NCBI RefSeq assembly: GCF_031851795.1
Contig: NZ_CP134696.1
Span: forward strand, 3,740,501-3,804,500
Reading direction: 5' to 3'
Length of the DNA stretch: 64,000 nt
Source: Pontibacter sp. G13
GTDB taxonomy: Bacteria; Bacteroidota; Bacteroidia; J057
The translations under genes and the position numbers were made by a program. How positions within the stretch are numbered: position 1 is the first letter of the stretch; each line of letters begins with the position of its first letter. Below the pieces are notes generated by a model. It saw only the letters and a program-made list of their open reading frames with translations. It had not been told where the DNA came from and ran no database searches. Below are positions 4,881-55,937 of this stretch, in pieces.

Positions 4881-6533
4881 ATGGATGTCCTTTCCCCTCC
4901 TCGCTATGGAAGAATGACTTTCTCTGGGCTGGATGAGCTTTTTGATCGCCTTCGATTGGTACAAAGGACTCATCTTGGTCAGACTCCCTTTTCCGCTTAC
5001 CTAGCCACCTTTGATCAACAAAGGTTGTACGGTCTCGACCTTTCCGAGCTTGAAATAGCATTGAGAACGCATGCCCACGATTTCGCCTCTTTCACGGCTT
5101 CTTGCCAGACATCGACGGGTAAAATGATCCGCATCCATGTCAAAGCACCTCCACTCAATCGCCCCACACAAGGTCAATTCTTGATCTCTACCGGCAGCAA
5201 CCAACTCAATAAAGCCCTTGAGGGTATCCTCACAGGAACGAAATCCAGAAGCTCCATTTCTGGTTCTATCGGAAATACACTGGGACTCATCGGGAATGTA
5301 ATCCCAAGCTTCAGGCAGCAACCACCCGCTGTAGACCGACCGTCGACTTTTCGGTATCCCACGATTTCTACTACAGAATCCTTCTTTTTTGATCTAGATA
5401 TTGTTCCCGATTCGCTGCTTTCGCTGGTCAATAGGCTTTCAGACACCTTTCTGAATCGCTCCCCATTCCACATCCGGATGGAAACCACAGATGGAGATTA
5501 TCATTTCCACCTAGATCGAAACGGCCTGAATTTTCTGTTCAATCACCGAAGAAACAAGATTCTAAATATCTATCTGGATTCGGCTTCCCTAGATGGGCAA
5601 TGGGTGAATATTCGATTGTCTTTCCACCCTTTGGCGCAAGGTCCAAATGGGGAAGTAGACATCACCTCCCACCACTCTGAGGAGATCTGCAACATGATCG
5701 AGCAGACCATTGGTATTCCGCCCCATAAAAATGATTTACCCAGACCCCTCTCTGCAGCTTTTCAATTGGAGGCCAAATGGTTTGATTTACACAAACTGAT
5801 TTGGGGGATTCAAGAAGTCGCCAAGCAGTATCTAGATCGAGTTCCCCCCGTAGCATTTGTGTCCACCACGCATGGAGCCTCGCACGCTGGTTTGAGTATG
5901 TTCCAACTGAAGCGTTGGGAAGCTCAAGCAGGAAACACGTTGGATTGGCTTTCAATCGGGATTCACCAGATCATGACTGGCCAGTCTTGTTCCATCACTT
6001 GCAAGGTAAAGTCCAAGGATTGGATCACGGTCATGCTGCATATCCATTGGGGGAATGCGGCCTTACATCAGGCTGTTGCTGATTTTCTTCAGACCAAAAT
6101 GGGGTTCAAATCTACTACCCAGCCAGATCAAGTCCGTGTCTCTGAAAACCGACTCTCACAAGGCGTAATCACCCTGATGCCACAGGCCAAGTGGAATGAA
6201 GAACTTGAACGAATCCTTGTCCATGAATTGAGGAAAAACGATATCCATCTCCACGCCTTATCACATTCCTATGCCTATCAGGCCTGGAATGAGGCTTGCA
6301 TGGAAATTGCGGCTTCCGATTTTCTGATGGTGGATGTCAGTCAAGCTGCTCCTCATATCTACTACCAAATCGGTATTGCAGAAGCGATGGGAAAACCCAT
6401 CATTTATTTGGCATTGGAGTCAGCCGAAATTGCCGCTGAGTTTTCTCCCAAAACCCTCATTCGATATATCCCTACAGCGTGGAGCTTTCTAGAGTTAAAG
6501 CGCCAAGTAGTTGATATCCTTGAATCAAGGTGA
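4881..6533 (+). CDS. Unknown protein with deoxyribosyltransferase/TIR-like C-terminal domain
   Basis: I do not recognise the first 400 or so of the 550 residues; they show no signal peptide or membrane segment and include a Ser/Gly-rich stretch near residues 110-140. The last 120 residues follow the nucleoside 2-deoxyribosyltransferase-like pattern found in many nucleotide-sensing or defence proteins: a strand ending in LMP near residue 430, a helix, then ASDFLMVDVSQ with Asp485, and a nucleotide-loop-like HIYYQIGIAEAMGKPIIYL. Relatives generally have Glu in the YYELG motif; here it is Gln496, so hydrolase or transferase activity may be lost. The gene is monocistronic, begins at ATG 4881, and stops just before a DnaA-box cluster. 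The function is unknown. Confidence 0.8.
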   Translation: MDVLSPPRYGRMTFSGLDELFDRLRLVQRTHLGQTPFSAYLATFDQQRLYGLDLSELEIALRTHAHDFASFTASCQTSTGKMIRIHVKAPPLNRPTQGQFLISTGSNQLNKALEGILTGTKSRSSISGSIGNTLGLIGNVIPSFRQQPPAVDRPSTFRYPTISTTESFFFDLDIVPDSLLSLVNRLSDTFLNRSPFHIRMETTDGDYHFHLDRNGLNFLFNHRRNKILNIYLDSASLDGQWVNIRLSFHPLAQGPNGEVDITSHHSEEICNMIEQTIGIPPHKNDLPRPLSAAFQLEAKWFDLHKLIWGIQEVAKQYLDRVPPVAFVSTTHGASHAGLSMFQLKRWEAQAGNTLDWLSIGIHQIMTGQSCSITCKVKSKDWITVMLHIHWGNAALHQAVADFLQTKMGFKSTTQPDQVRVSENRLSQGVITLMPQAKWNEELERILVHELRKNDIHLHALSHSYAYQAWNEACMEIAASDFLMVDVSQAAPHIYYQIGIAEAMGKPIIYLALESAEIAAEFSPKTLIRYIPTAWSFLELKRQVVDILESR

Positions 6534-6668
6534 ATAACCCACAGGTATTCAACAGCTTATCCACAAGATTTCCACACCAGTGTTAGGAATATGTTACACC
6601 CACGTAACAAATCTTACATTTCAGGGAAATGAACCTTTTTCCCACCGGTAATCCACAGGTTATCAACA
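6533..6668. promoter_or_regulatory. Small DnaA-box cluster
   Basis: This gap between two convergent genes holds one perfect TTATCCACA (6557-6565) and near matches TAACCCACA (6533), ATTTCCACA (6568), TAATCCACA (6649) and TTATCAACA (6660, overlapping the folD stop). An inverted repeat TGTTAC-N6-GTAACA lies at 6592-6609. No U-tract terminator is visible although both flanking genes end here. Confidence 0.5.
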
Positions 6669-7517
6669 TGGTTGCCCACAAAGCATCGACGCTGCTTCGA
6701 ATGTTTGGGCCATCAATGTGGATATCGTCATCGGACCAACGCCACCGGGGACAGGCGTATAGGCTGCACTAAGGGATTTCGCTGCCTCCAAATCAATATC
6801 ACCAACACGACCGGGGTGATATCCCGCATCCACCAGAATTGAACCTTGCTTGATCCAATCTGCCTGAACGAATTTGGGTTTGCCGACTGCAGCAACTACG
6901 ATGTCTGATTGGCGAACAAGCTCTGGTAGATTCTGAGTCCGAGAGTGGCAAATTGTCACGGTTGCATGTGCATTGAGTAGCATCATGGCCATCGGTTTAC
7001 CCAAAATTGGACTCCTGCCGATCACCACCGCATGCTTTCCCTCTAGCGGAATATGGTAGTGGCTCAGCAATCTCATGATGCCCGCAGGCGTAGCACTTCC
7101 ATAAGCTTGGCTCCCCATGGTCATGCTTCCAAATCCAGCAGCCGTAACCCCATCGACATCTTTGAGTGGAGAGATTGCATCGAAAGCTGCCCGTTCATCA
7201 ATTTGGTGAGGGACTGGGTGCTGAAGCAATATGCCATGCACATTGGGGTCTTCATTCAGATCCCGAATGACTGAAAGTAGTTCCTCTGTCGTGGTATGGC
7301 TGGGTAGATGTTTGCTGATGGATTCCATGCCTACTCGATGACAGGCTTTGGCCTTCATCGCTACATAGGTGGCAGAAGCAGGGTCATCTCCCACAAGAAT
7401 CGTAGCCAAAGTGGGGCGTGTCCCAGTCAAGTTGGATAGATTCTCTACACGACTTGAGAGGGTTTGCTCAAGTTGCTTGGACAGGGATTTTCCATCTAGG
7501 AGCAGTGGTTCCGGCAT
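6663..7517 (-). CDS. folD: Bifunctional methylenetetrahydrofolate dehydrogenase / cyclohydrolase
   Basis: FolD oxidises 5,10-methylene-THF with NAD(P)+ and hydrolyses the product to 10-formyl-THF, feeding purine and formyl-Met synthesis. I start at ATG 7517 ([10 protein letters not shown]), which gives 284 residues, the normal family length; the open frame extends 57 codons upstream without family similarity. The catalytic Tyr/Lys motif appears in [11 protein letters not shown], followed by GILLQHPVP, the Rossmann segment [16 protein letters not shown] and the C-terminal [15 protein letters not shown]. It is convergent with the preceding gene and divergent from ddl. Confidence 0.96.
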
Positions 7518-7697
7518 AAGGCATCGACTTTTCCCAAAATGATTCCGAATGAAAGGGTTCGATTTTGGGTTTAGTGGGTAGATACAGAAATTAAGGACGT
7601 CAAAACTACCAAAATTATCCATAGGAAATAGACCGGATTCTGTAGTTTTGTTGAAGAACGACCGATTCCGTCTCACGACTAATTGCAATCACCGCTC

Positions 7698-14558: not shown

Positions 14559-15661
14559 GTCATCTTATGCTCCCATGCAGGAATCAACTGAAGGATTCGG
14601 TCGTAGTTCTCAGATCCTTCACTGATTCCCTGTTTTTCTAAATAAGTATCATAAATCTTCGCATAGAGCCAAGGGTACCATCCGGGGTATCTTCTGATGA
14701 CCGCATTCACCGCATCTAAATCGGCCACCATTCCAGCTGGAAGTCCTTGCCTGAGCGCTTCGTAGACTTCCGGATTAGCCCCCATGTAGCTTCGAGCCAA
14801 ATACCGGTAATACCCCATGGCGCCAGAGTATCGGATTGCAGGGTCAGGAGAATGTTGACATGCGAGATACCCCAGAAAATTGCAGGTTCCTTCATCGCCA
14901 AACCCATATCCGTGTGACATTTCATGAGCCATCGTAAATGGTAATGAGACTGGCGGAATGCACGCATCCACATGTCCTTCCATCACAAACGGAATGTAGA
15001 TTCCAGATGCTCCCATTTGCATCAAAGCTCCCTGTGGCCACACTCGCTTGGCCCTCACTCTACCGACTGTTGGATATCCCATCTCCTCAAGGACTGCCTC
15101 CAAATGCACCCGAAGGTGTCCTTCCAAATCGGAAGGAAGGTGAGACATTTTGAGGGGCCCCTGGTTTTTGTCGGGGATAGATGCTTCCAGCGATGACGTC
15201 CGGGAGATTTGGCTAGAAAGCGTTTTTCCCAATTTCAATTCTGAGGCGATAGGAACCTTCAGTTGCAGCCATTGTTCGATGGGCATCCGAAAGTAATTGA
15301 ACCCCCACAAAAAGTAGAATAGGGTAAATAACCCTGCAAAAAAGGTCGTAGTTCCCAGCAGCCATCTGGCGATTCGATTCTTGATTGGGAGCTTCTTGAA
15401 AGTTTGATTGGCACGAATAAATCTCCAAACCCACCAGCCAATAAGCCCCGGAACTGCCAAGTAAAGCCAAGGAAACGGAAGCCAACCTAGGGTATAATCC
15501 CAAACCAATCTTACTACCTGAAAGAATCCCTGTGCATACACCCATTCTGTAAAACCGGGATTGGAACCCGCTACCCATTTTAGTAACCAGGTCAAAAAAC
15601 CAAGTCCGATCCAAACGAATCGGTGATCAACGGATATGAGGCGAGATTTTTTGGAAGTCAT
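14552..15661 (-). CDS. DUF3810 membrane zinc metallopeptidase
   Basis: From ATG 15661 the protein has 369 residues; an upstream TTG adds 11 and seems unlikely. Two or three hydrophobic segments fill the first 120 residues (FVWIGLGFLTWLL, WLYLAVPGLIGWWVW, FFAGLFTLFYFLWGF). A zinc-binding HEMSH motif lies in PFTMAHEMSHGYGFGDEGTCNF, with the following Glu of DEG as probable third ligand. This is the pattern of DUF3810 proteins, predicted but not characterised metallopeptidases common in Bacteroidota. It is convergent with the sigma factor gene, overlapping it at the 3' end. Confidence 0.88.
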   Translation of the reverse strand: MTSKKSRLISVDHRFVWIGLGFLTWLLKWVAGSNPGFTEWVYAQGFFQVVRLVWDYTLGWLPFPWLYLAVPGLIGWWVWRFIRANQTFKKLPIKNRIARWLLGTTTFFAGLFTLFYFLWGFNYFRMPIEQWLQLKVPIASELKLGKTLSSQISRTSSLEASIPDKNQGPLKMSHLPSDLEGHLRVHLEAVLEEMGYPTVGRVRAKRVWPQGALMQMGASGIYIPFVMEGHVDACIPPVSLPFTMAHEMSHGYGFGDEGTCNFLGYLACQHSPDPAIRYSGAMGYYRYLARSYMGANPEVYEALRQGLPAGMVADLDAVNAVIRRYPGWYPWLYAKIYDTYLEKQGISEGSENYDRILQLIPAWEHKMTQ

Positions 15662-27051: not shown

Positions 27052-27527
27052 AAACTAGCGAATAGATGATTTAGCGAAATTACGCAAAAAATGAAGATTC
27101 GCAGCTATCTTTTATGACTAAAAATTTGACGATCAATTGATTAAAATCAATATTTGGAATGCGTCAAATCTCACAAGATACAAACAAAACAAATTACAGG
27201 CCAACGAAGTCGACCGATTTGAAAAACCGTTACAGGCGAGCGGAATTGTTTGAAAAAGTGGCAGGAGTCCCGCGGAATCCATGCAAAGTCTCAAATGCCT
27301 GACCCAACTTTCCCGATCTAGAAAAATGGCTTTCCGACCAATGGGGGCACATGATAGCAAAGATTCCGGCAAATGGGAAGCTGGATGGGGGGATTGCATA
27401 ACATCTCCGCATAAACTTCCCAAAGATTAAAACTAAACGTACACTTATGCCGTTATAGTGTCCGCATGGTAGGATACAAAGCCGGTGAACCAACAAATAA
27501 TTTTTTTGAAGTTTTTTTGATGCGGGC
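27052..27527. other. Intergenic stretch, no gene seen
   Basis: About 475 AT-rich bases separate the fbp start from the tRNA promoter. Short open frames here have no family features or neighbours that would support them. The fbp promoter should lie at the left end. Confidence 0.5.
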
Positions 27528-27601: not shown

Positions 27602-27674
27602 GATTCGATAGCTCAGTTGGTAGAGCATCTGCCTTTTAAGCAGAGGGTCCTGGGTTCGAGCCCCAGTCGAATCA
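27602..27674 (+). tRNA. tRNA-Lys (anticodon TTT), copy 1
   Basis: Acceptor stem GATTCGA/TCGAATC with discriminator A, D arm GCTC...GAGC, anticodon stem TCTGC/GCAGA around loop CTTTTAA (anticodon TTT) and T arm CTGGG-TTCGAGC-CCCAG. CCA is not encoded. It is identical to the copy at 27925. Confidence 0.97.
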
Positions 27675-27679
27675 CAAAG

Positions 27680-27715
27680 CCCTGACAGTCTCAGATTGTC
27701 AGGGTTAATTTTTCT
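27680..27715 (+). terminator. Terminator after tRNA-Lys copy 1
   Basis: CCCTGACA (27680-27687) pairs with TGTCAGGG (27697-27704) and is followed by TTAATTTTTC. Confidence 0.88.
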
Positions 27716-27748
27716 TTGGTCGGCAATAGCCGAGACATACTTACTAAT

Positions 27749-27836
27749 GCCCAGGTGGTGGAATTGGTAGACACGCTAGCTTGAGGGGCTAGTGGCCATT
27801 GCGGCCGTGCTGGTTCGAGTCCAGTCCTGGGTACCA
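27749..27836 (+). tRNA. tRNA-Leu (anticodon GAG)
   Basis: Acceptor stem GCCCAGG/CCTGGGT with a G-U first pair, anticodon stem CTAGC/GCTAG with loop TTGAGGG (anticodon GAG), a long variable arm typical of Leu, T arm with GGTTCGAGTCC, and an encoded CCA at 27834-27836, unlike the two Lys genes. Confidence 0.96.
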
Positions 27837-27841
27837 TCCGA

Positions 27842-27874
27842 CAAACTCACTGTTTTTACAGTGAGTTTTTTTTC
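27842..27874 (+). terminator. Terminator after tRNA-Leu
   Basis: AAACTCACTGT (27842-27852) pairs perfectly with ACAGTGAGTTT (27857-27867), and the U tract continues after it. Confidence 0.92.
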
Positions 27875-27924
27875 ACGGGGCCAAGGATGTTCACATACAC
27901 CTCCCGTTCCTCACATACATAGCT

Positions 27925-27997
27925 GATTCGATAGCTCAGTTGGTAGAGCATCTGCCTTTTAAGCAGAGGGTCCTGGGTTCGAGCCCCAGTCGAATCA
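27925..27997 (+). tRNA. tRNA-Lys (anticodon TTT), copy 2
   Basis: Identical in all 73 bases to the copy at 27602, again without encoded CCA. The flanks are also duplicated: GCT before it and the same terminator sequence after it, offset by two inserted C residues. Confidence 0.97.
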
Positions 27998-28001
27998 CCC
28001 A

Positions 28002-43881: not shown

Positions 43882-45681
43882 TTACGCTTTTTCTGGTTCA
43901 GGAAGAATCGTCAGTACTTCATCATCCATGAGACGTTCAATCAAGCCCAATGTCTTGGGAACCTCATAGTGGAAATAGTATTTCATGGCTCGAATCTTAC
44001 CTTCGAGATACAATCTTTCTTCAGTTGAATGTGTGGAATTTTCCAATTCGAGTTGAGCAACATGTCCTTGCTTTAGCCACTGCCACGCGATAGCCACAAT
44101 GCCAAAAAACTCTAGATAAAGCGTAGCATCCATCAGGAATCTTTCAATATCGCCCTTCATCGCGAAGCCAGCCAGATGCATACTGACCTCTTGAATTTTC
44201 TTTAATTTCTCCTTTAAGATTGCAGCATACTTTCCGAATGATCCTTGAGATTCCACTGCATCGATGGTTTCCTGCACTTCTTTCATATACAGTTGTACAG
44301 CTTTTCCCGCTTTCATAGTGACTTTTCTACCCAGTAGATCCATCGCCTGGATACCAGTAGTGCCTTCATAAATCGGGTAGATTCGAATATCCCTGAATAG
44401 GTTTTCGAGCGGGAAATCTTTGCAGTATCCAGCTCCTCCCAAGATTTGCAACCCATTGCTGACAGAAGTAATTCCCATTTCAGAAGGAAAACTTTTTGCA
44501 ATCGGCGTAAGCAAATCTAGCAGCATCTCATATCGTTCTTTTTCCTCCCCCTCACTCACAGTGGCCATATCAGCGTATTTGGCGCATTCTAGTACGAGGC
44601 TCAAAGAACCTTCCACTACCGATTGCTGAAGCAGCAACATTCTCTGAATGTCAGGATGGTTTTTGATCAAAGTTTGGGGAAGGCTGAGGTTCCGATTATT
44701 CAATCTTCGTCCTTGAGGCCGCTCATTGGCATATTGAAGCGAAGCATGATAAGCAGCAGAAGCGATGGCAGCTCCACCAAGTCCCACCAAAAGTCTGGCC
44801 TCATTCATCATTTTAAACATGTAGGAGAGTCCGCGATTTTCTTCTCCCAACAAGTACCCTACACAATTCCCTTTATCACCATACATTAGATGCGTCGCGG
44901 GCGTCCCTTTCTGCCCAAGCTTATGATAAACCCCAGCTGTGGTTATATCATTATGCACGAGTTGGCCATTTTCATCTCTGAATTTGGGCACAATAAATAG
45001 GGAAATCCCTTTGGTACCTGCAGGCGCTCCTTCAATTCGACCAAGTAATAAATGGATTACGTTTTCCACTCCTTCATAATCGCCGGCAGAAATGAATATT
45101 TTTTGACCTTCTATTTTATAAGTTCCATCTGGCTGAGGAATCGCTTTCGCCTCAACATCCGAAAGGGAACTTCCTGCTTGGGGTTCAGTCAGCGCCATTG
45201 TTCCTTGCCATTCTCCCCCAAACATCTTAGGTAGATAAGTATCCTTTTGCTCTTGAGATCCAAATTCCACCAAAAGATTTGTCGCTGCAGTAGTCAGTCC
45301 AGTAAAACCTAGTGCTCCATTATTTGCTGCAGAAAAGATGAAACCAGCACAGACACCGAGCATTTGTGGGATTTGCATACCTGAAACAGACATGGGAGCT
45401 ACTGCGCCAATCCAACCACCATCAGCCATAGCTCGGATAAATGGATGGACACTTTCATGAACACTGATCGTATCACCCACCAATTCAGGCTCATTCCGAT
45501 CCATTGATTCATAATGTGGGAATAGGTAGCTATCCGCAAGCTGCTTAGCTGCATCAAGCATCATATCCATGGTCTCTTCATCATTGTGTGAGTAGTAGTC
45601 GTGAGCAACGACATCTTCTACTCGATGGACTTGCTTGAGTAGAAATCTTAGATCTCGTAAGCTCACATAGGAATCTGCCAT
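43882..45681 (-). CDS. Acyl-CoA dehydrogenase
   Basis: This 599-residue flavoprotein catalyses the first oxidation of fatty-acid beta-oxidation. Family motifs are visible: MALTEPQAGSSLSDV (FAD and substrate contact), KIFISAGDYEG, GTKGISLFIVPKF and, in the C-terminal helical domain, GGAGYCKDFPLENLFRDIRIYPIYEGTT, where the Glu of YEGT is the usual catalytic base. A C-terminal extension of about 130 residues beyond the core helices (to KA) occurs in the long FadE-like subgroup. The gene is the last on the minus strand before the putative origin and points away from it. Confidence 0.94.
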   Translation of the reverse strand: MADSYVSLRDLRFLLKQVHRVEDVVAHDYYSHNDEETMDMMLDAAKQLADSYLFPHYESMDRNEPELVGDTISVHESVHPFIRAMADGGWIGAVAPMSVSGMQIPQMLGVCAGFIFSAANNGALGFTGLTTAATNLLVEFGSQEQKDTYLPKMFGGEWQGTMALTEPQAGSSLSDVEAKAIPQPDGTYKIEGQKIFISAGDYEGVENVIHLLLGRIEGAPAGTKGISLFIVPKFRDENGQLVHNDITTAGVYHKLGQKGTPATHLMYGDKGNCVGYLLGEENRGLSYMFKMMNEARLLVGLGGAAIASAAYHASLQYANERPQGRRLNNRNLSLPQTLIKNHPDIQRMLLLQQSVVEGSLSLVLECAKYADMATVSEGEEKERYEMLLDLLTPIAKSFPSEMGITSVSNGLQILGGAGYCKDFPLENLFRDIRIYPIYEGTTGIQAMDLLGRKVTMKAGKAVQLYMKEVQETIDAVESQGSFGKYAAILKEKLKKIQEVSMHLAGFAMKGDIERFLMDATLYLEFFGIVAIAWQWLKQGHVAQLELENSTHSTEERLYLEGKIRAMKYYFHYEVPKTLGLIERLMDDEVLTILPEPEKA

Positions 45682-45930
45682 ATCTAATACTAATTGCTAG
45701 TTGGGTGGGAAAATATTGGCTATTTACTGTGGATAGCTCTAACAGTATGCGTGCATATTTAATCTACTATTTTTCCTTAATTGATCCTAGATTCGGTGTT
45801 TTGAATGCTTCCGATGATCGTTATATCAAGAAAAAAGGCCGGAATTAACTTGGTTAGATCATTATCGGAAAAGGAGAGAAATTGAAGGTAATTGAGATGA
45901 AAAGGCACAGAACTGAATCAAATAATTGAG

Positions 45931-45939
45931 TTATCCACA
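45931..45939 (+). promoter_or_regulatory. DnaA box (perfect)
   Basis: TTATCCACA, exact match to the TTATNCACA consensus; leftmost perfect box of the putative origin. Confidence 0.75.
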
Positions 45940-46407
45940 ATCACAACTTACTGAATATCAGTATTATATATATAATACAAAGCAATTTTGAAAAGATCGG
46001 CCAGCCAAGTCTTCGATATATAGCCCAAAAGTCGGCCTTAGAAAACCCGGGAAAGGAGAGACTTGGAACTATCGATTTCTATAGGATTCTCAGCCTTTAA
46101 AAATCACAAAAACGTAGGCTGAGAATCGCGCAAAACAAACCCACCCGAACAAGAGGTCTATCTACTCGATTCTGGCTTTGCATTCCACAGGAAATCAACA
46201 TCGCAATTTACTCAGATTAAGAGGAATAATTCGTTTTCCACAGATGTCTTTCCACAATTATCTCCATAGTACCATACATACGACATATACCGTCTTTCCA
46301 AATAGATAAAATAAATTTCCTGAAAACTATCTGATATTTAATAATGATCGCACAGTCACAAAGTCAATTCCGTCACTTATTTGGGCAAAAAGCAATAGCA
46401 AAAATGG

Positions 46408-46416
46408 TTATCCACA
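46408..46416 (+). promoter_or_regulatory. DnaA box (perfect)
   Basis: TTATCCACA, exact consensus, at the start of the densest box group (46408-46680). Confidence 0.78.
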
Positions 46417-46536
46417 CAAAAAATGATAAGATCTGTAAGTCTCAGATTTACAGGTGCTTAATATCCACATAATATTGGGGGAATCTGTTGGGATCTAGAC
46501 TGGGTATGAGAATAACCTTTTCCACACAGCGCACTT

Positions 46537-46545
46537 TTATTCACA
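46537..46545 (+). promoter_or_regulatory. DnaA box (perfect)
   Basis: TTATTCACA, exact match to TTATNCACA, followed 5 bases later by a minus-strand box with one mismatch (46550-46558). Confidence 0.72.
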
Positions 46546-46912
46546 AATCAGTGGATAAGCCAAAAATGTGGATTACTGACGTGAATATCTCCTGGCTTTT
46601 ACACGACTTCATCCACATAGATCAGCAAAGCGAAATTCCCCAAAACCAAAATCCACATGGGTGTGGAAATGTGGATTTCTTATTTCACTCTATCAAAAAT
46701 TCAGTCTGAATTTTGGCCCAATTCAGACTGCGAAAGTAGTAGGCCCAAATACAGCTAATGTAATTGAAAAACAGGAGTCAAGCACAAATCCGGAAAACTG
46801 GAAAGTTTCGAGGATAAATTCTCCTTCGAAAGAACTAGAAACGTATGTGGAATTTGACAGAACAAATGTGGGAATCCAATAATCCTAGGAAATGCGCACT
46901 ATTTTTCCCCCA

Positions 46913-46921
46913 TTATCCACA
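46913..46921 (+). promoter_or_regulatory. DnaA box (perfect)
   Basis: TTATCCACA lies 16 bases left of the T-rich tract that could unwind first. Confidence 0.78.
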
Positions 46922-46937
46922 GGACCATTACTACTAC

Positions 46938-46980
46938 TGTATTTTTTTTCTTTTTTTCTATAAAAGAATATTAATAGTAG
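46938..46980. other. AT-rich tract, possible DNA unwinding element
   Basis: A run of T-rich then A/T-mixed sequence with almost no G or C adjoins the perfect DnaA box at 46913, the arrangement seen in many bacterial origins. Confidence 0.5.
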
Positions 46981-47484
46981 TTCCTCCGAGAAATTCTCAA
47001 AGGAAGCTTAACCACCTATTAGTTTGATTTCCGTAAATTTTAAATGAATCCGTAGAATTCCCTCTTTGCGTGTTCCCAAAAGCTTTCCGTTGGATCCACG
47101 GGTGATTTGAGCAGGTCCTTGGCGGAGATTGAAATGTGCACTAATCCACGCTTTTCAGCACTTATCCCCAGCGCCATATCTGTGGAATAGTTTTTCACTC
47201 CTCATACATATTGGATGTATAGTGCTAAAAAACAAGCTTTTATATGCGATGTCACTATGTGAATTTGTGTTGACAAGGTTGTTGAAAAGCAGTGGATATC
47301 ACTAAAAAAGAATCTTGAATCTGTTAGATTTGAAGAATATTCGTAGCTTTACGGTCCCTTACAGCGGAAAAGTATCCGCACTTTGCTCCTGATCCCGGAG
47401 CTGCGTTCGCGCTGGGCAGTCCTGCCCCGAATGCAAAATGGGATTTGAACATTTGAAACGTACGAATTATAAACTGACAGAACT

Positions 47485-48570
47485 ATGCATAATGATGGTG
47501 GTTCTGGGCTAACTCCTATTTCTAGCTATGGAGAGTTTGGCCTGATCAACCATCTGACCCAAGCATTTCCTGTTGTCCATCCTCATGTGATCAAGGGGAT
47601 TGGCGACGATGCTGCTGTTATTCAGCCAGCTGAGGGCTTGGTTCAGGTAATTTCCACTGATTTGTTGTTGGAGGGAGTACACTTCGATTTGTCGTATGTA
47701 CCGCTTCGGCATCTTGGATATAAGTCCATCGCAGTGAATCTGAGTGATATCGCTGCGATGAATGCCCAACCATTGGCCATTACGGTTTCAATCGGGATGA
47801 GCAACCGGTTTCCAGTTGAAGCATTGGAGGAACTCTACGCAGGGATGAAGATCGCCTGCGAAAAATATCAAGTAGACCTGATTGGGGGAGACACTTCCAG
47901 TTCCAAGCAAGGCCTAATGATTTCAGTTACAGCTGTTGGGCAAGTGAGTCCTGAGGCAGTGACGTATCGGAAGGGTGCGAAAAAAGGAGATTTGATTGTC
48001 GTCTCAGGAGATGTCGGAGCTGCGTACGCCGGATTGCTTGTGTTGGATCGAGAAAAGAGTGTTTACATGAATGCTCCAGATCTTCAGCCAGATTTGACTG
48101 ACTACGATTATGTCGTCGGTAGGCAGTTGAGACCAGATCCTCGGGTAGATGTGATTTATCGGTTAAAGGAATTGGGGATCCAGCCAACTTCCATGATTGA
48201 TATCAGCGATGGAATAGCGAGTGAGTTGCATCACCTTTGTTTTCACAGTAAATGCGGAGCAACGATTTATGCTCACAAGCTCCCGATTGATTTCCAGACG
48301 GTGAAGGTTGGAGAGGAATTTGAGATCAGCCCAGTTACGTTCGCGCTAAATGGTGGCGAAGACTATGAGTTGATGTTTACGATTCCCATTGAGGATTTCG
48401 AAAAGATCAAAACCATTGAAGGCCTTTCTGTAGTTGGACATATCACCGATGAGGAAGGTATCATGCATTGCATGTTGGAATCAGGTGAAGCAGTAGAAAT
48501 CACTGCTGACGGATTTCAGCATTTCAAAGACACTGATACAAATTCTGATTCTCCTGAATCAGAAGTCTAG
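47485..48570 (+). CDS. thiL: Thiamine-monophosphate kinase
   Basis: ThiL phosphorylates thiamine monophosphate to the active diphosphate. The 361 residues fit. Diagnostic motifs are GIGDDAAVIQP near residue 40 (ATP and Mg binding), GVHFDLSYVPLRHLGYKSIAVNLSDIAAM, LIGGDTSSS and the C-terminal FALNGGEDYELMFT. The gene is the first on the plus strand right of the putative origin. It is followed three bases later by xth, so the two are co-transcribed. Confidence 0.95.
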   Translation: MHNDGGSGLTPISSYGEFGLINHLTQAFPVVHPHVIKGIGDDAAVIQPAEGLVQVISTDLLLEGVHFDLSYVPLRHLGYKSIAVNLSDIAAMNAQPLAITVSIGMSNRFPVEALEELYAGMKIACEKYQVDLIGGDTSSSKQGLMISVTAVGQVSPEAVTYRKGAKKGDLIVVSGDVGAAYAGLLVLDREKSVYMNAPDLQPDLTDYDYVVGRQLRPDPRVDVIYRLKELGIQPTSMIDISDGIASELHHLCFHSKCGATIYAHKLPIDFQTVKVGEEFEISPVTFALNGGEDYELMFTIPIEDFEKIKTIEGLSVVGHITDEEGIMHCMLESGEAVEITADGFQHFKDTDTNSDSPESEV

Positions 48571-49592: not shown

Positions 49593-52500
49593 ATGAACCG
49601 GAATCAAGAAGCGCTGGATCACCGTCTCCAGGAATTCAGGAAAAAGTACTACGTAGATAAAATAATACGTGGGTCCCTGATATTGGCGCTGTTGATGAGC
49701 TCTATTTTGTTTGTCGCACTACTGAGTGAGGGCCTTTTTGGTTTTTCTTCGGCAGTGAGAACAGGCATGGTAGTGTTTCTGGGATTGGGTTTCCTTGGGG
49801 TATTGGGATACATGGTCATATGGCCTTTTTCCCAAATGTTGAAATACTCCAAGGGGATTACAGATTTTCAGATTGCCGATATGGTCAATCGATTTTTCCC
49901 TGAGATCTCAGACAAGCTGACGAATGTTCTTCAATTAAGGAAGAACACGGCAGGAGAGAATACTTTGGCAATGGCTGCAATTGACCAGAAGGCAAAAGAG
50001 ATTACTCCGGTTCAGTTGAGTTCTGCCATTAACTTAAAACTTAACCGCAAATATGCATGGTACCTATTGGTTCCGTTGGTGCTGTATTTTGTTGTTTACC
50101 TTTTTGATCCAGCCATTCTTGGAACTGGAATTCATCGATTGACTCACTACAATCAGCAGTTCGTTCCACCTCCGCCTTTTGAAATAACTATTTCTGGAGT
50201 TCCTGAATCTATGGTTGCTGGTGAAACACTGGATTTGGAAATTGAGGTAGCAGGAAAAGAGCTTCCCTCTGAGCTCTTTATTTATATAAAAGGCAACCCA
50301 GAAGAACAATCAGACTTTATTGACTACAGCTTAAATAAAAATTCAGCTACTGAGTTTTCTTATTCCTTTCCAGATGTAAAGGGAGATTTCGAATTCTATG
50401 TAGGAAACGTTGAAACTGAAACTCCCTTATATAAGGTGGATGTCCTTAAAAGGCCATTTATTAAAAATTTCCAAGTTCGAATCAATTATCCCAAATACAC
50501 GGGATTGCCCAGTGAACTTCTTGATCCTAATGTTGGAGATTTTAAGGCGATTAAGGGATCTTACCTCACATGGAATATGATTCCAAATGGTGATGTGCAG
50601 GCCGCTGCATTGGTAGTTGATAGTGTGGAAACGGAATTTGAGAAAAGTGAGGATGGAAGCCTTTTCACAGTTGGAAAGCGGCTCATGCGGGAACTTGATT
50701 ATCATATCTCGCTCACTTCATCTGATGCTATTCAAAACCTTGACACAGTAAAGTACCGAGTTCAGGTAATTGCAGATCGTCATCCGAGCATGTATGTGTT
50801 TTCTCCCAACAATGATTATGTTGTTGATTTAGATCCTGTCATGGTATTGGATTTGGAAATTTCTGATGACTTCGGTTTTTCTAAGATGAATCTCCATTAC
50901 AGGTTTACTAAGTCAGGCGGTACTTCTAACGTATCTGCGGAATATCAATCATATCCACTTTCGATCGAATCAAGGACCTTGCTTCAACCTTTGAACTATG
51001 CTGTGGATCTTACCCAATTAGGATTGCAGGAAGGTGATGAGTTGGAGTACTATCTCGAAGTTTGGGATAATGATGCGGTTTCTGGTCCCAAATCAGCCAC
51101 CTCTGCAACCTATAAAGTAGTTCATCCAACCCTTGATGCTAAGTACGAGGAGGTAGGAGAGCAACAAGACGAGGTCAATGAAGAGATAGAGGAATTGAAG
51201 GAAACTTCTCAAAGCTTGAGAGAGGCATACCAAAAAATGCAAGAGAAGTTGTTGGACCAAAAGAGACTATCCTTTGATGATAAAAAGGAATTGGAAAGAA
51301 TGATGAAGGAGCATCAAAACATGCTTCAACAATTGTCAGAAACCCAAGAGAAATTCGAAGAAGCCAAGCGTCAATTAGAGGAGAATCAAATGATCTCCGA
51401 GCAAACGCTTGAGAAGTATGAGGATTTGAACAAATTCTTGGAGGAACTGAATGACCCTGAGATTGAAAAACTACTTGAGGAAATCCAAGAGAAAATGGAG
51501 GATCTCAATACGGAGGATTTGATGGAACAGCTCGAACAATTGGAGCTTAATGATCAGGATATTCAAAAAAGTCTGGAGCGTACACTTGAATTGCTTAAGC
51601 AACTAGAAGTCGATCAAAAGATTGATGAGATCAGAAATAAGGTTGATAACCTAAAGAGCAAGCAGGATTTTCTCAATGAACAGCTCGAACAAGCTGAAAC
51701 GCCTGAGGAATTAGAGCAGCTTTCTGATCGTCAAGAAGCCTTGTCTGAACAAATGGAAGACATTCAAGAGAGTCTTGATGATCTTCAGGAAATGAAAGAT
51801 GAGACTGAATCATCGGATGATTCAAGTATGGAAGAGGTTCAAGAACAAGGCGAGGAAGCTCAAGAGAACATGGAGCAAGCTGCAGAACAAATGCAGGAAG
51901 CTTCTGAACAAATGCAAGAGGGGGGAAGGAAGAACCAGAAGCAGTCTCAGCAGAATCAGCAAGAATCTTCGGAATCCCAGAAGGGTGCCTCTCAAAAGCT
52001 ACAGGAAATGTCTGAAGCTTTAGAGTCCATGCAAATGCAGATGTCTGGTCAGCAGGATCAGGAAAATCTTGAGAATTTACGGGAACTGCTTGAAAATCTG
52101 TTGAAACTCTCCTTTGATCAGGAAGATTTGAGGGATGAGGTTGAGTCTTTGAAATATGGGGACCCTTCCTTGAAAGAAAAGAGCCAACGTCAAAAAGACC
52201 TTCAAGATGATATGGGACTTGTTCGAGATAGTCTTGAGTCTCTGGCCAATCGGGTTTTCCAGATTCAGAAGTACGTGTTGGATGAAAGCCAGAAAATCAC
52301 TGGTAACATGCAGAAATCCCAGACTTTCTTTCGGAATAAGCAGGTTCCCATGATCACCTATCATCAGCAATCGGCCATGACGAGTATTAATAATCTCGCC
52401 AATATGCTTTCTGATGTAATGAAGCAGATTCAAGAGCAGATGATGAATAGTCAGGCAGGGAATGGAATGTGCCAAAAGCCTGGCGGGAAAAAACCGAACA

Positions 52501-53015
52501 TGCAAGGGGTAGGGGAGCAGCAGAAGAAGTTGAATCAGCAAATGATGCAGATGATGAGGGATGGCCAGATGAGCGGCCAACAATTACAGAAAATGGCAGG
52601 CCAGCAAGAGGCGATTCGAAAGCAGCTAGAAGAAGCACAACGTCAGTTGAAAGAGCAGGGAGGAAATCAGCTTGGTGACCTTGATAAAATACAACAGCAA
52701 ATGATAGAGTCGGAATCTGATCTTTTGAATAAGAATTTGACTCATGAGACATTGAAACGCCAGCAAGAGATTCTGTCTCGTCTCCTTCAAGCGGATCGAT
52801 CTGTTAGGGAACGGGAGTTTGATAACAAGCGAGAATCAAAAACTGGCCGTACACAAAATATGGTATCTCCTGATGATTTATCTTTGGAGGAGTATAAGCA
52901 CAAGATTAGACAGGAGCTCCTGAAGTCGAATAAGTTGGAATATTCCAGCGATTTCATCATCTTGATTGAACAATACTTTAAAATGCTCGAAGGCGCAAAT
53001 GAACAGTCGAACTGA
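49593..53015 (+). CDS. DUF4175 membrane protein with long coiled coil
   Basis: The 1140-residue protein starts at ATG 49593. Three hydrophobic segments lie near residues 27-50, 53-78 and 148-168, followed by extracytoplasmic beta-rich domains to about residue 510 (YTGLPSELLDPNVGD, KMNLHYRFTKSGG). The remaining half is charged coiled coil (about 515-800) passing into a Gln/Met/Glu-rich region (QMQEASEQMQEGG, MMNSQAGNGM). This is the DUF4175 layout, common in Bacteroidota and without a known function. Its stop codon overlaps the start of the next gene. Confidence 0.88.
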   Translation: MNRNQEALDHRLQEFRKKYYVDKIIRGSLILALLMSSILFVALLSEGLFGFSSAVRTGMVVFLGLGFLGVLGYMVIWPFSQMLKYSKGITDFQIADMVNRFFPEISDKLTNVLQLRKNTAGENTLAMAAIDQKAKEITPVQLSSAINLKLNRKYAWYLLVPLVLYFVVYLFDPAILGTGIHRLTHYNQQFVPPPPFEITISGVPESMVAGETLDLEIEVAGKELPSELFIYIKGNPEEQSDFIDYSLNKNSATEFSYSFPDVKGDFEFYVGNVETETPLYKVDVLKRPFIKNFQVRINYPKYTGLPSELLDPNVGDFKAIKGSYLTWNMIPNGDVQAAALVVDSVETEFEKSEDGSLFTVGKRLMRELDYHISLTSSDAIQNLDTVKYRVQVIADRHPSMYVFSPNNDYVVDLDPVMVLDLEISDDFGFSKMNLHYRFTKSGGTSNVSAEYQSYPLSIESRTLLQPLNYAVDLTQLGLQEGDELEYYLEVWDNDAVSGPKSATSATYKVVHPTLDAKYEEVGEQQDEVNEEIEELKETSQSLREAYQKMQEKLLDQKRLSFDDKKELERMMKEHQNMLQQLSETQEKFEEAKRQLEENQMISEQTLEKYEDLNKFLEELNDPEIEKLLEEIQEKMEDLNTEDLMEQLEQLELNDQDIQKSLERTLELLKQLEVDQKIDEIRNKVDNLKSKQDFLNEQLEQAETPEELEQLSDRQEALSEQMEDIQESLDDLQEMKDETESSDDSSMEEVQEQGEEAQENMEQAAEQMQEASEQMQEGGRKNQKQSQQNQQESSESQKGASQKLQEMSEALESMQMQMSGQQDQENLENLRELLENLLKLSFDQEDLRDEVESLKYGDPSLKEKSQRQKDLQDDMGLVRDSLESLANRVFQIQKYVLDESQKITGNMQKSQTFFRNKQVPMITYHQQSAMTSINNLANMLSDVMKQIQEQMMNSQAGNGMCQKPGGKKPNMQGVGEQQKKLNQQMMQMMRDGQMSGQQLQKMAGQQEAIRKQLEEAQRQLKEQGGNQLGDLDKIQQQMIESESDLLNKNLTHETLKRQQEILSRLLQADRSVREREFDNKRESKTGRTQNMVSPDDLSLEEYKHKIRQELLKSNKLEYSSDFIILIEQYFKMLEGANEQSN

Positions 53016-53431: not shown

Positions 53432-53866
53432 ATGGAAGAGACTTCTTTACAGTTCTTCTATCAAGATATCGACTTTACTTTAGACAAAGAGGATTCAGTT
53501 AAAAACTGGATCCTCTTTGTGGTAGATAAGGAGGGTCGCTCCCTTGAAGAAGTTAACTATATTTTCTGCTCTGATGAATACCTCCTTAAGTTGAATGAGG
53601 AGTATCTTCAGCATACTGACTATACCGACATTCTTACGTTTCCGAATTCTCCTAAGGATGTTCCCGAAATTTCTGCTGATATCTATATAAGCATTGACCG
53701 TATTAAGGAAAATGCAACCAAGTTTGATCAGTCCTTTACTGATGAATTGCATAGGGTGATGATCCACGGAATGCTACATTTGATTGGATATGATGATCAT
53801 AATGACGCTGACATCCTTGAAATGCGCATTGCTGAAACTAGGTCATTAGAACTTAGAAATTTCTGA
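53432..53866 (+). CDS. ybeY: Endoribonuclease YbeY
   Basis: YbeY is a zinc RNase that matures the 3' end of 16S rRNA and takes part in ribosome quality control. The 144 residues end with the family motif HGMLHLIGYDDH, whose three His bind zinc. An upstream TDILTFPNSP segment is also typical. The gene follows the RsbW-like gene after 7 bases; its TGA stop directly abuts the first parS site. Confidence 0.95.
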   Translation: MEETSLQFFYQDIDFTLDKEDSVKNWILFVVDKEGRSLEEVNYIFCSDEYLLKLNEEYLQHTDYTDILTFPNSPKDVPEISADIYISIDRIKENATKFDQSFTDELHRVMIHGMLHLIGYDDHNDADILEMRIAETRSLELRNF

Positions 53867-53882
53867 TGTTCCACGTGGAACA
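53867..53882. promoter_or_regulatory. parS site 1
   Basis: TGTTCCACGTGGAACA is a perfect palindrome that fits the ParB-binding consensus TGTTNCACGTGNAACA. It begins at the base after the ybeY stop. Confidence 0.82.
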
Positions 53883-53895
53883 CTGAGTAGTTTGA

Positions 53896-53947
53896 AGAAA
53901 AAGGAAGGAGTAATGTTCCACGTGGAACATTACTCCTTCCTTTTTCT
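53896..53947 (+). terminator. 52-bp perfect palindrome: ybeY terminator enclosing a second parS site
   Basis: The two 26-base arms meet between 53921 and 53922 with no loop. The outer part (GAAAAAGGAAGGAG / CTCCTTCCTTTTTC) behaves as a hairpin ending in a U tract, a terminator for the DUF4175-ybeY operon. The centre, 53914-53929, is parS. Confidence 0.8.
53914..53929. promoter_or_regulatory. parS site 2
   Basis: This second exact TGTTCCACGTGGAACA lies 31 bases after the first and forms the centre of the 52-bp palindrome. Confidence 0.82.
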
Positions 53948-54074: not shown

Positions 54075-55937
54075 ATGTTTCCAGAATATGACGTGGTAGT
54101 GGTTGGAGCTGGACACGCTGGTTGTGAAGCCGCTGCAGCCGCTGCTAATATGGGCATGAAGGTCATGCTTGCTACCATGAATATGGGGACCATTGCCCAG
54201 ATGTCCTGCAATCCTGCTATGGGGGGAGTAGCCAAAGGCCAATTGGTTCGGGAAATAGATGCGTTGGGAGGATACTCTGGGATAATCACAGACGAAACTA
54301 TGATTCAGTTTCGAATGTTGAACCGCTCTAAAGGTCCAGCAATGTGGAGCCCAAGGGCCCAAAGTGACCGTCTCCGATTTGCAGAAACGTGGAGACTTAT
54401 GCTAGAAAGGACTCCTCAGGTAGATTTCTGGCAGGAAATGATCACTGGACTCATTGTAGAGAATGAGAAGGTGGTTGGGGTAACCACTCAACTTGGCCTT
54501 GAAATCCGTTCTAAAACCGTAGTCCTGACTAATGGTACCTTCCTAAATGGGCTGATACATATTGGAGAAAAACAATTTGGAGGAGGGCGTTCTGGCGAGA
54601 GAGCCTCAGTAGGCTTGACTGCGCAGCTTGAATCCCTTGGATTTGAAAGTGGAAGAATGAAGACTGGTACTCCGCCAAGGGTAGATGGAAGATCCATTGA
54701 CTGGTCTGCAACTGAAGAACAGCCGGGAGATGAAAACCCAGGTAAGTTTTCCTATACCAATACCAAACCTTTAACAACCCAAAGGTCATGTTTCATCACC
54801 TATACGAACCCGACAACACATGATTTGCTAAAGGAAGGATTTGATCGTAGTCCGATGTTTAATGGCCGAATTCAGGGTTTGGGTCCTAGATATTGTCCTT
54901 CTATTGAAGATAAAATCAACCGATTTGCTGATCGAGAGCGTCATCAAATCTTTCTAGAACCAGAAGGTTGGGATACGGTCGAAGTTTATGTGAATGGGTT
55001 TTCCTCCTCCTTACCTGAAGGCGTCCAATTCAAAGCATTGCGTTCTGTCCCTGGAATGAAAAATGTGAAGTTTTTCCGACCTGGATATGCAGTTGAATAT
55101 GACTTTTTTCCGCCTACTCAGCTTTCTTTGACGCTAGAAACTCAGATCATTTCCAATCTGTTTTTTGCCGGTCAAATTAACGGCACCACAGGTTACGAGG
55201 AAGCGGCTAGTCAAGGGTTGATAGCAGGGATCAATGCTGCATTGAAAGTGCATGAAAAAGATCCTTTTATTCTAAAGCGGGACGAAGCGTATATAGGGGT
55301 TTTGATTGATGATCTTGTCAACAAAGGCACCAAAGAACCCTATAGAATGTTTACTTCACGTGCAGAATATAGAACCTTGCTACGTCAGGATAATGCTGAT
55401 CTACGGTTAACTGAAAAGGCAAATGCTATCGGATTGGCTTCCAGCGAAAGGCTAGAGAACATGCTTGCTAAGCAAAACCAAGTTGAAAAAGTACAGCAAG
55501 TAATGTCTGAAACGTCTATTTCTCCGAAGGAAGTAAACGATTATCTGTCTTCTTTAAATAGCTCGCCTCTTAAGCAAAAGGTTAGATCTTATCAGGTTCT
55601 TACTCGCCCGAATGTTAGAATTGAACCATTGATTCAATCTTCTCCTGAATTGCAAAGTGAGCTGATCAGCATATCGGCGGAGAACCTTGAGCAGGCAGAA
55701 ATCCAGATTAAGTATGCTGGGTATATTAAGAAGGAGCAAGATCTGGCTGAGAAAATGATGAGACTTGATCAGATTGTCATTCCGGCTGATTTTGATTTCG
55801 GTAAATTGAAATCTCTTTCTTCAGAGGCCCGCGAAAAATTAACTCAACAAAGACCTCAAAATTTAGGTCAAGCTTCTAGAATTAGCGGAGTTTCAATGGC
55901 TGATATTTCTGTTCTCATGGTTTTTATGGGAAGATAA
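54075..55937 (+). CDS. mnmG: tRNA uridine-5-carboxymethylaminomethyl modification enzyme
   Basis: MnmG (GidA) is the FAD protein that, with MnmE, installs the cmnm5 group at U34 of several tRNAs. The 620 residues match. The FAD-binding VVVVGAGHAGCEAAAAAANMG opens the protein. GGVAKGQLVREIDALGG, the family motif QFRMLNRSKGPAMWSPRAQ and the C-terminal YAGYIKKEQ are all visible. mnmG lies close to the origin in many bacteria, in keeping with the parS sites before it and the putative oriC 7 kb to the left. Confidence 0.97.
   Translation: MFPEYDVVVVGAGHAGCEAAAAAANMGMKVMLATMNMGTIAQMSCNPAMGGVAKGQLVREIDALGGYSGIITDETMIQFRMLNRSKGPAMWSPRAQSDRLRFAETWRLMLERTPQVDFWQEMITGLIVENEKVVGVTTQLGLEIRSKTVVLTNGTFLNGLIHIGEKQFGGGRSGERASVGLTAQLESLGFESGRMKTGTPPRVDGRSIDWSATEEQPGDENPGKFSYTNTKPLTTQRSCFITYTNPTTHDLLKEGFDRSPMFNGRIQGLGPRYCPSIEDKINRFADRERHQIFLEPEGWDTVEVYVNGFSSSLPEGVQFKALRSVPGMKNVKFFRPGYAVEYDFFPPTQLSLTLETQIISNLFFAGQINGTTGYEEAASQGLIAGINAALKVHEKDPFILKRDEAYIGVLIDDLVNKGTKEPYRMFTSRAEYRTLLRQDNADLRLTEKANAIGLASSERLENMLAKQNQVEKVQQVMSETSISPKEVNDYLSSLNSSPLKQKVRSYQVLTRPNVRIEPLIQSSPELQSELISISAENLEQAEIQIKYAGYIKKEQDLAEKMMRLDQIVIPADFDFGKLKSLSSEAREKLTQQRPQNLGQASRISGVSMADISVLMVFMGR

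Follow-up and report, generated by a model that had tools for sequence, protein, structure and literature searches.

The window, i.e. the whole 64-kb stretch of DNA that was analysed, corresponds to positions 3740501-3804500 of contig C1 (7,538,910 bases; the genome comprises 7.67 Mb in 3 contigs). Its longest stretch without an open reading frame (ORF) of at least 100 amino acids is a gap of 1,803 bp (the runner-up measures 512 bp) with a GC content of 37.6%. The gap contains 10 GATC sequences and ORFs of up to 73 amino acids, and it matched none of the Rfam families. The flanking genes diverge from it. The right-hand gene, thiL, matches TIGR01379 at 320.5 bits (cut-off 184.15), and the closest named records of its homologues are from Bacteroidota (among the best 80 of 92). 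The left-hand ORF was called acyl-CoA dehydrogenase-like on the basis of family matches that were at best below the curated cut-offs. An earlier note on this DNA had placed a chromosomal replication origin in the gap, describing it as the longest gene-free stretch, lying between divergent genes, with four perfect and at least nine one-mismatch DnaA boxes, an adjoining A/T-rich tract (46938-46980) and nearby parS sites. All of these observations could be reproduced. The features, with the boxes located by motif search, are listed below in window coordinates.

43882-45681, minus strand: acyl-CoA dehydrogenase-like gene, left flank (matches below curated cut-offs)
45682-47484, no strand: intergenic gap, very probably the oriC region, with the box cluster and the cumulative GC-skew minimum inside
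45728-45736, minus strand: DnaA box, 1 mismatch, CTATCCACA
45931-45939, plus strand: DnaA box, exact, TTATCCACA
46234-46242, plus strand: DnaA box, 1 mismatch, TTTTCCACA
46408-46416, plus strand: DnaA box, exact, TTATCCACA
46461-46469, plus strand: DnaA box, 1 mismatch, ATATCCACA
46507-46515, minus strand: DnaA box, 1 mismatch, TTATTCTCA
46518-46526, plus strand: DnaA box, 1 mismatch, TTTTCCACA
46537-46545, plus strand: DnaA box, exact, TTATTCACA
46550-46558, minus strand: DnaA box, 1 mismatch, TTATCCACT
46567-46575, minus strand: DnaA box, 1 mismatch, TAATCCACA
46609-46617, plus strand: DnaA box, 1 mismatch, TCATCCACA
46913-46921, plus strand: DnaA box, exact, TTATCCACA, the box of the putative basal unwinding system (BUS)
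46922-46927, plus strand: spacer of 6 bp, GGACCA, separating the box from the trios (sequence reading)
46928-46939, plus strand: putative DnaA-trios TTA CTA CTA CTG (opposite strand 3'-AAT GAT GAT GAC-5'; trio rule)
46940-46983, no strand: A/T-rich putative DNA unwinding element, part of the 60-mer with the highest A/T content in the window
47162-47170, plus strand: DnaA box, 1 mismatch, TTATCCCCA
47207, no strand: lowest point of the cumulative GC skew computed over the window (C1:3,787,707)
47485-48570, plus strand: thiL, right flank (TIGR01379)
53432-53866, plus strand: ybeY, conserved origin neighbour (profile match, synteny)
53867-53882, no strand: parS, exact palindrome, TGTTCCACGTGGAACA
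53914-53929, no strand: parS, exact palindrome, TGTTCCACGTGGAACA
54075-55937, plus strand: mnmG (gidA), conserved origin neighbour (profile match, synteny)

The four exact copies of TTATNCACA and the nine one-mismatch sites of the gap are found on both strands, span 1.4 kb and are densest at 46408-46617. When the gap was dinucleotide-shuffled 1,000 times, exact boxes averaged 0.09 (maximum 2) and one-mismatch boxes 2.20 (maximum 7), and no shuffle attained the observed total of boxes. Counts over the whole 64-kb window were unremarkable (5 exact boxes vs 1.95 expected, with as many in 5 of 100 shuffles, and 60 boxes with at most one mismatch vs 50.46 expected), thus the signal consists in clustering. 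When 3,868 overlapping 1.8-kb segments from 61 pieces of the genome (1.26 of 7.67 Mb) were ranked by box content, the five richest all overlapped the gap. Two other arrangements of boxes were observed. A smaller DnaA-like group at 6529-6725 of the window, located at the ORFs 4881-6533 and 6663-7688, packs an exact TTATCCACA (at 6557) together with four one-mismatch sites into 200 bp, and two exact TTATCCACA sites 22 bp apart occur at C1:6,511,502-6,511,532, distant from both origin and terminus.

The exact box at 46913-46921 is followed by the spacer, four triplets and the A/T-rich tract. The DnaA-trio rule, as given in PMC8287927, describes a 3'-GAT-5' consensus with a central A, at least three triplets and a box within 16 bp. 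By this rule positions 46913-46939 have the layout of a BUS, with a box and, after no more than 16 bp of spacer, three or more trios of the form 3'-NAN-5'. The trios are beyond the features listed in the earlier note. The A/T-rich tract of that note overlaps the top A/T-rich 60-mer of the window (46924-46983, 48/60), and by composition this DNA beside the boxes is a candidate unwinding element; two other tracts within the gap reach 47/60, and one at 27086-27196 reaches 46/60. A genome-wide search (7.67 Mb) for the motif TTATCCACA-N(3-16)-ACTACT gave a single match, and the reversed control gave none. The putative element shares with the BUS of Bacillus subtilis and other bacteria, as described in PMC8287927, the box, the spacer of no more than 16 bp, three or more central-A trios on the bound strand and the A/T-rich DNA. 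It differs from them in having a single exact box, a second tandem box being unclear (tandem boxes were reported there in 57%), a spacer of 6 bp instead of the commonest 13 bp, and four trios only.

GC skew was sampled in 60 stretches of 20 kb of C1 and in the window (together 1.26 of 7.67 Mb). It was negative in all 30 stretches from 20 kb to 3.74 Mb, positive in 27 of the 28 from 3.805 to 7.519 Mb, and near zero (+0.006 and -0.013) in the two stretches touching dnaA. The sampled skew flips sign at two places on the 7.54-Mb chromosome, one inside the window and the other, across the chromosome, around dnaA, as would be expected if replication proceeded bidirectionally from the gap. The stretch of exceptional sign (L112, C1:5,400,001-5,420,000) has a GC content of 0.39, every long frame counted in it runs on the minus strand, and it may be acquired DNA. 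The earlier note had made its proposal depend on a skew minimum at 46-47 kb; this check was run, and the sampled skew turned from minus to plus in the window, with the minimum at 47,207, inside the gap. The statement that neither dnaA nor dnaN is close to the gap also held. The single-copy dnaA (C1:25-1431) lies about 3.75 Mb from the gap by the shorter way, and dnaN (C1:3,380,359) is 406 kb from it, thus the origin is not linked to dnaA and dnaN, the former being antipodal.

Only two exact parS sites (TGTTNCACGTGNAACA) were found genome-wide, at 53867 and 53914 of the window between ybeY and mnmG. They are 6.4 kb from the gap, i.e. near the proposed origin. The distance between the gap and mnmG (gidA), a classical origin neighbour, is 6.6 kb. 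Among the other genes of the window, the ORF at 49593-53015 (orf1140) encodes 1,140 amino acids and has no NCBIfam match and a partial match to Pfam DUF4175 (40 bits, cut-off 27.3), and 27602-28001 carries a tRNA trio, Lys(TTT)-Leu(GAG)-Lys(TTT), with both Lys genes at 74.4 bits.

Within the sampled 1.26 Mb, the next best box cluster after the gap is situated 212 kb leftward, at C1:3,575,129-3,575,433 (positions 15129-15433 of the sampled stretch L100), where a 305-bp gap contains two exact TTATCCACA sites, with a third exact one in the adjoining gcvT and more near-boxes. It is very unlikely that this cluster is the true origin and the 1,803-bp gap a DnaA-titration site: skew is negative in the L100 stretch (-0.043, 3.56 Mb) and on either side of it (-0.035 at 3.40 Mb and -0.046 at 3.65 Mb), and the cluster has neither an exact parS nor an exact box with ACTACT. 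Moreover, when 12 relatives were inspected around gcvT (13 loci, flanked by at most 1.5 kb and in some cases shortened by contig ends), 11 had no exact box and one had a single one. The L100 cluster is possibly a titration or regulatory site of this genome; as a conserved titration site it was unsupported by the same gcvT loci.

A search for thiL in 40 genomes, including the one studied here, gave matches in 39. In one of the 12 relatives from the same family (G009) the match was remote (E 1.5e-8), which left 11 with a true thiL. The 2.4-2.5 kb upstream of the gene contained 1-4 exact and 7-15 one-mismatch boxes in eight of these 11 (G001-G007 and G010), and the box totals were reached in 0 of 200 shuffles per region in all eight; in two of them, G006 (27/200 shuffles) and G007 (11/200), the exact-box count by itself was not significant. 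All three members of genus g9 lacked an exact box upstream of thiL, and their totals were matched or exceeded in 2, 53 and 126 of 200 shuffles. Since enrichment is absent or weak in this genus, the link between thiL and the boxes is not family-wide. A box cluster (3 exact and 9 one-mismatch sites; 0/200 shuffles) was also found in G015, a genome of the same order. In the eight relatives with box clusters xth lies at most 0.9 kb downstream of thiL, and all except G007 keep orf1140 and ybeY further downstream and parS on the same contig; in G007 that part of the neighbourhood is on another contig (L223). The 1,140-amino-acid ORF thus stays between xth and ybeY near the origin in seven relatives, and in G007 precedes ybeY on a separate contig.

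The local minimum of cumulative skew (over 40-60 kb) was no more than about 1.5 kb from the thiL start in each of the three relatives tested: at 6,767,914 in G004 (thiL start 6,769,419), at 177,181 in G006 (thiL 177,159) and at 428,027 in G002, where thiL, 62% identical, starts at 427,235 on the minus strand. With the genome studied here included, the skew minimum was at thiL in four of four genomes tested. On the two chromosome arms of G004, 8 of 9 samples were positive and 10 of 11 negative, respectively.

Judged from the sequences, the trio element appears to be only partially conserved among the relatives, with a flank clearly alike in genus g3 alone. When 13 upstream regions were scored for trios, the genome studied here (G000; score 6.0) passed, G005 passed weakly (4.7), and no other region did so; a second trio rule applied to 30 loci was passed only by the same genome and G002. 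The 25 bases flanking the box at 46913 had 17 and 18 matches in the two g3 genomes (G002 and G010), 13 in G006 and 10 in G004. The mean best identity of this flank was 12.5, and another box of the same genome scored higher (12.9). Inspection by eye of G004, G006 and G007 revealed C-rich DNA, a box, a short spacer and an A/T-rich tract, arrangements that the rule-based searches mostly missed.

Skew by itself places an origin to within a few kb, and the genes flanking the gap do diverge, which would allow the gap to be a mere long divergent promoter with DnaA-regulated genes, the true origin being elsewhere within some kb. This explanation is highly improbable in view of the box count of the gap, which far exceeds that of the shuffles, the uniqueness of the box-trio-A/T element in the genome and the position of the skew minimum, at most about 1.5 kb from the thiL start in all four genomes. 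Least probable of all, and practically dismissed, is an origin at dnaA, as suggested by the contig beginning there (starting a contig at dnaA is a usual rotation convention): skew around dnaA turns from plus to minus, i.e. in the terminus sense, the 3.5 kb at the dnaA start have no exact and four one-mismatch boxes, and the parS sites are 3.745 Mb away.

The gap 45682-47484, with its intergenic box cluster, its (sampled) skew minimum and its distance from dnaA, is almost certainly the oriC of the chromosome. The proposal of a chromosomal origin away from dnaA is supported by the agreement of the sampled skew, parS, box clustering, the box/trio/A/T element and the clusters in the relatives. In initiation as we envisage it, DnaA would bind the exact box at 46913 as well as the box cluster, whose densest part is 46408-46617; from 46913 a DnaA filament would spread along the trio strand and melt the adjacent A/T-rich tract. 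Two helicases could then be loaded, and forks would depart in both directions and converge at the far side of the chromosome, near dnaA. ParB, presumably loaded at the two parS sites 6.4 kb away, would segregate the new origins.

The Escherichia coli oriC, about 250 bp in size, resembles the origin described here in carrying TTATCCACA boxes and in not being directly adjacent to dnaA. It differs in that here the boxes extend over 1.4 kb, the whole gap has 10 GATC sequences and dnaA is on the terminus side. A further likeness is the proximity of mnmG, the E. coli oriC being placed between gidA (mnmG) and mioC in a sentence on Yersinia in PMC10225481. In Bacteroidetes oriC is described as commonly distant from dnaA (PMC4755523); an origin remote from dnaA is already known and is common rather than exceptional in this group, and what is unusual here is the antipodal dnaA. 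In Prevotella intermedia OMA14 (PMC4755523) a skew turn and a DnaA-box cluster are likewise distant from dnaA. The account of Mariniflexile litorale in PMC11278836, where one figure legend gives the labels reversed relative to the text, has oriC beside mnmG and a dnaA at the sequence start that mismatched the skew plot. An origin at mnmG is also reported in PMC12843772. The present origin differs from the dnaA-unlinked origins described in PMC4755523 and PMC11278836 in its neighbours, the acyl-CoA dehydrogenase-like gene and thiL, and in the almost exactly antipodal dnaA. For Melioribacter, a deeper lineage, a dnaA-dnaN origin is given in PMC3534657, which suggests that the unlinking arose within the group. 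Blattabacterium is described as having neither dnaA nor DnaA boxes, its origin being set by skew alone (PMC2768785), and a cyanobacterial origin distant from dnaA and dnaN is described in PMC6323995.

The antipodal position was measured in the two genomes of the family with a chromosome-scale contig. The distance between dnaA and thiL was 3,787,960 of 7,538,910 bases in the genome studied here and 4,098,400 of 8,164,022 in G004, which places dnaA 18.5 and 16 kb, respectively, from the exact antipode of thiL (about 0.2%). In the genome studied here, cumulative skew over a contiguous 300 kb across the contig ends peaked 20.5 kb before the contig start, as part of a plateau that reaches from about -30 to +20 kb. 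The skew of G004 near dnaA is weak; its turn falls between the 2.60-2.62 and 2.64-2.66 Mb samples, 10-70 kb ahead of dnaA. On the dnaA contigs of G006 and G007 the skew maximum was 30 and 46 kb from dnaA, and in G002 and G010 (genus g3) no plus-to-minus turn was detected in the 160 and 100 kb sampled at dnaA. The evidence supports a terminus location of dnaA in two genera and makes it plausible in two further ones. As a family-wide property it was weakened by the lack of a skew turn in the G002 and G010 samples and by the weak skew of G004. Inversions symmetric about the origin-terminus axis tend to leave a terminus gene in place, and for this reason the antipodal dnaA genes of the two chromosomes are not independent observations. 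A search of 300 kb near dnaA with a dif-like consensus gave 2 matches at up to 3 mismatches vs 1-2 in shuffled sequence, and a search for palindromic 28-mers conserved among four genomes gave no convincing dif site, the best matches possibly reflecting coding conservation. Because the dif searches gave no convincing site, the terminus is placed by skew only.

To cover other Bacteroidia, 27 genomes of one or two contigs were surveyed with parS as a proxy for the origin (in G216 a reversed control matched as often as parS). Eight had no exact parS and two had parS and dnaA on different contigs. In all 17 genomes with an exact parS and dnaA on one contig the two were separated by at least 0.37 Mb, i.e. 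by 0.07 to 0.44 of the chromosome (based on rounded genome sizes). The unlinking of dnaA from the origin looks general among Bacteroidia. The exactly antipodal dnaA is not general, because the separations cover this whole range.

It is unlikely that selection holds dnaA at the replication terminus in the family, and no report of a dnaA kept there was found in a terminus-directed literature search, whose coverage excluded most subscription journals. If dnaA were held at the terminus, the initiator gene would be replicated last, the dnaA/DnaA pulse would come as a round of replication ends, and the next initiation would be coupled to the completion of the previous round. An assembly start at dnaA means that coordinate 1 is near the terminus in this genome. 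The origin of the 7.5-Mb chromosome is narrowed to a single 1.8-kb gap, and the chromosome offers a clean natural case of dnaA remote from its target, which could be used by dnaA-dosage models of initiation control.
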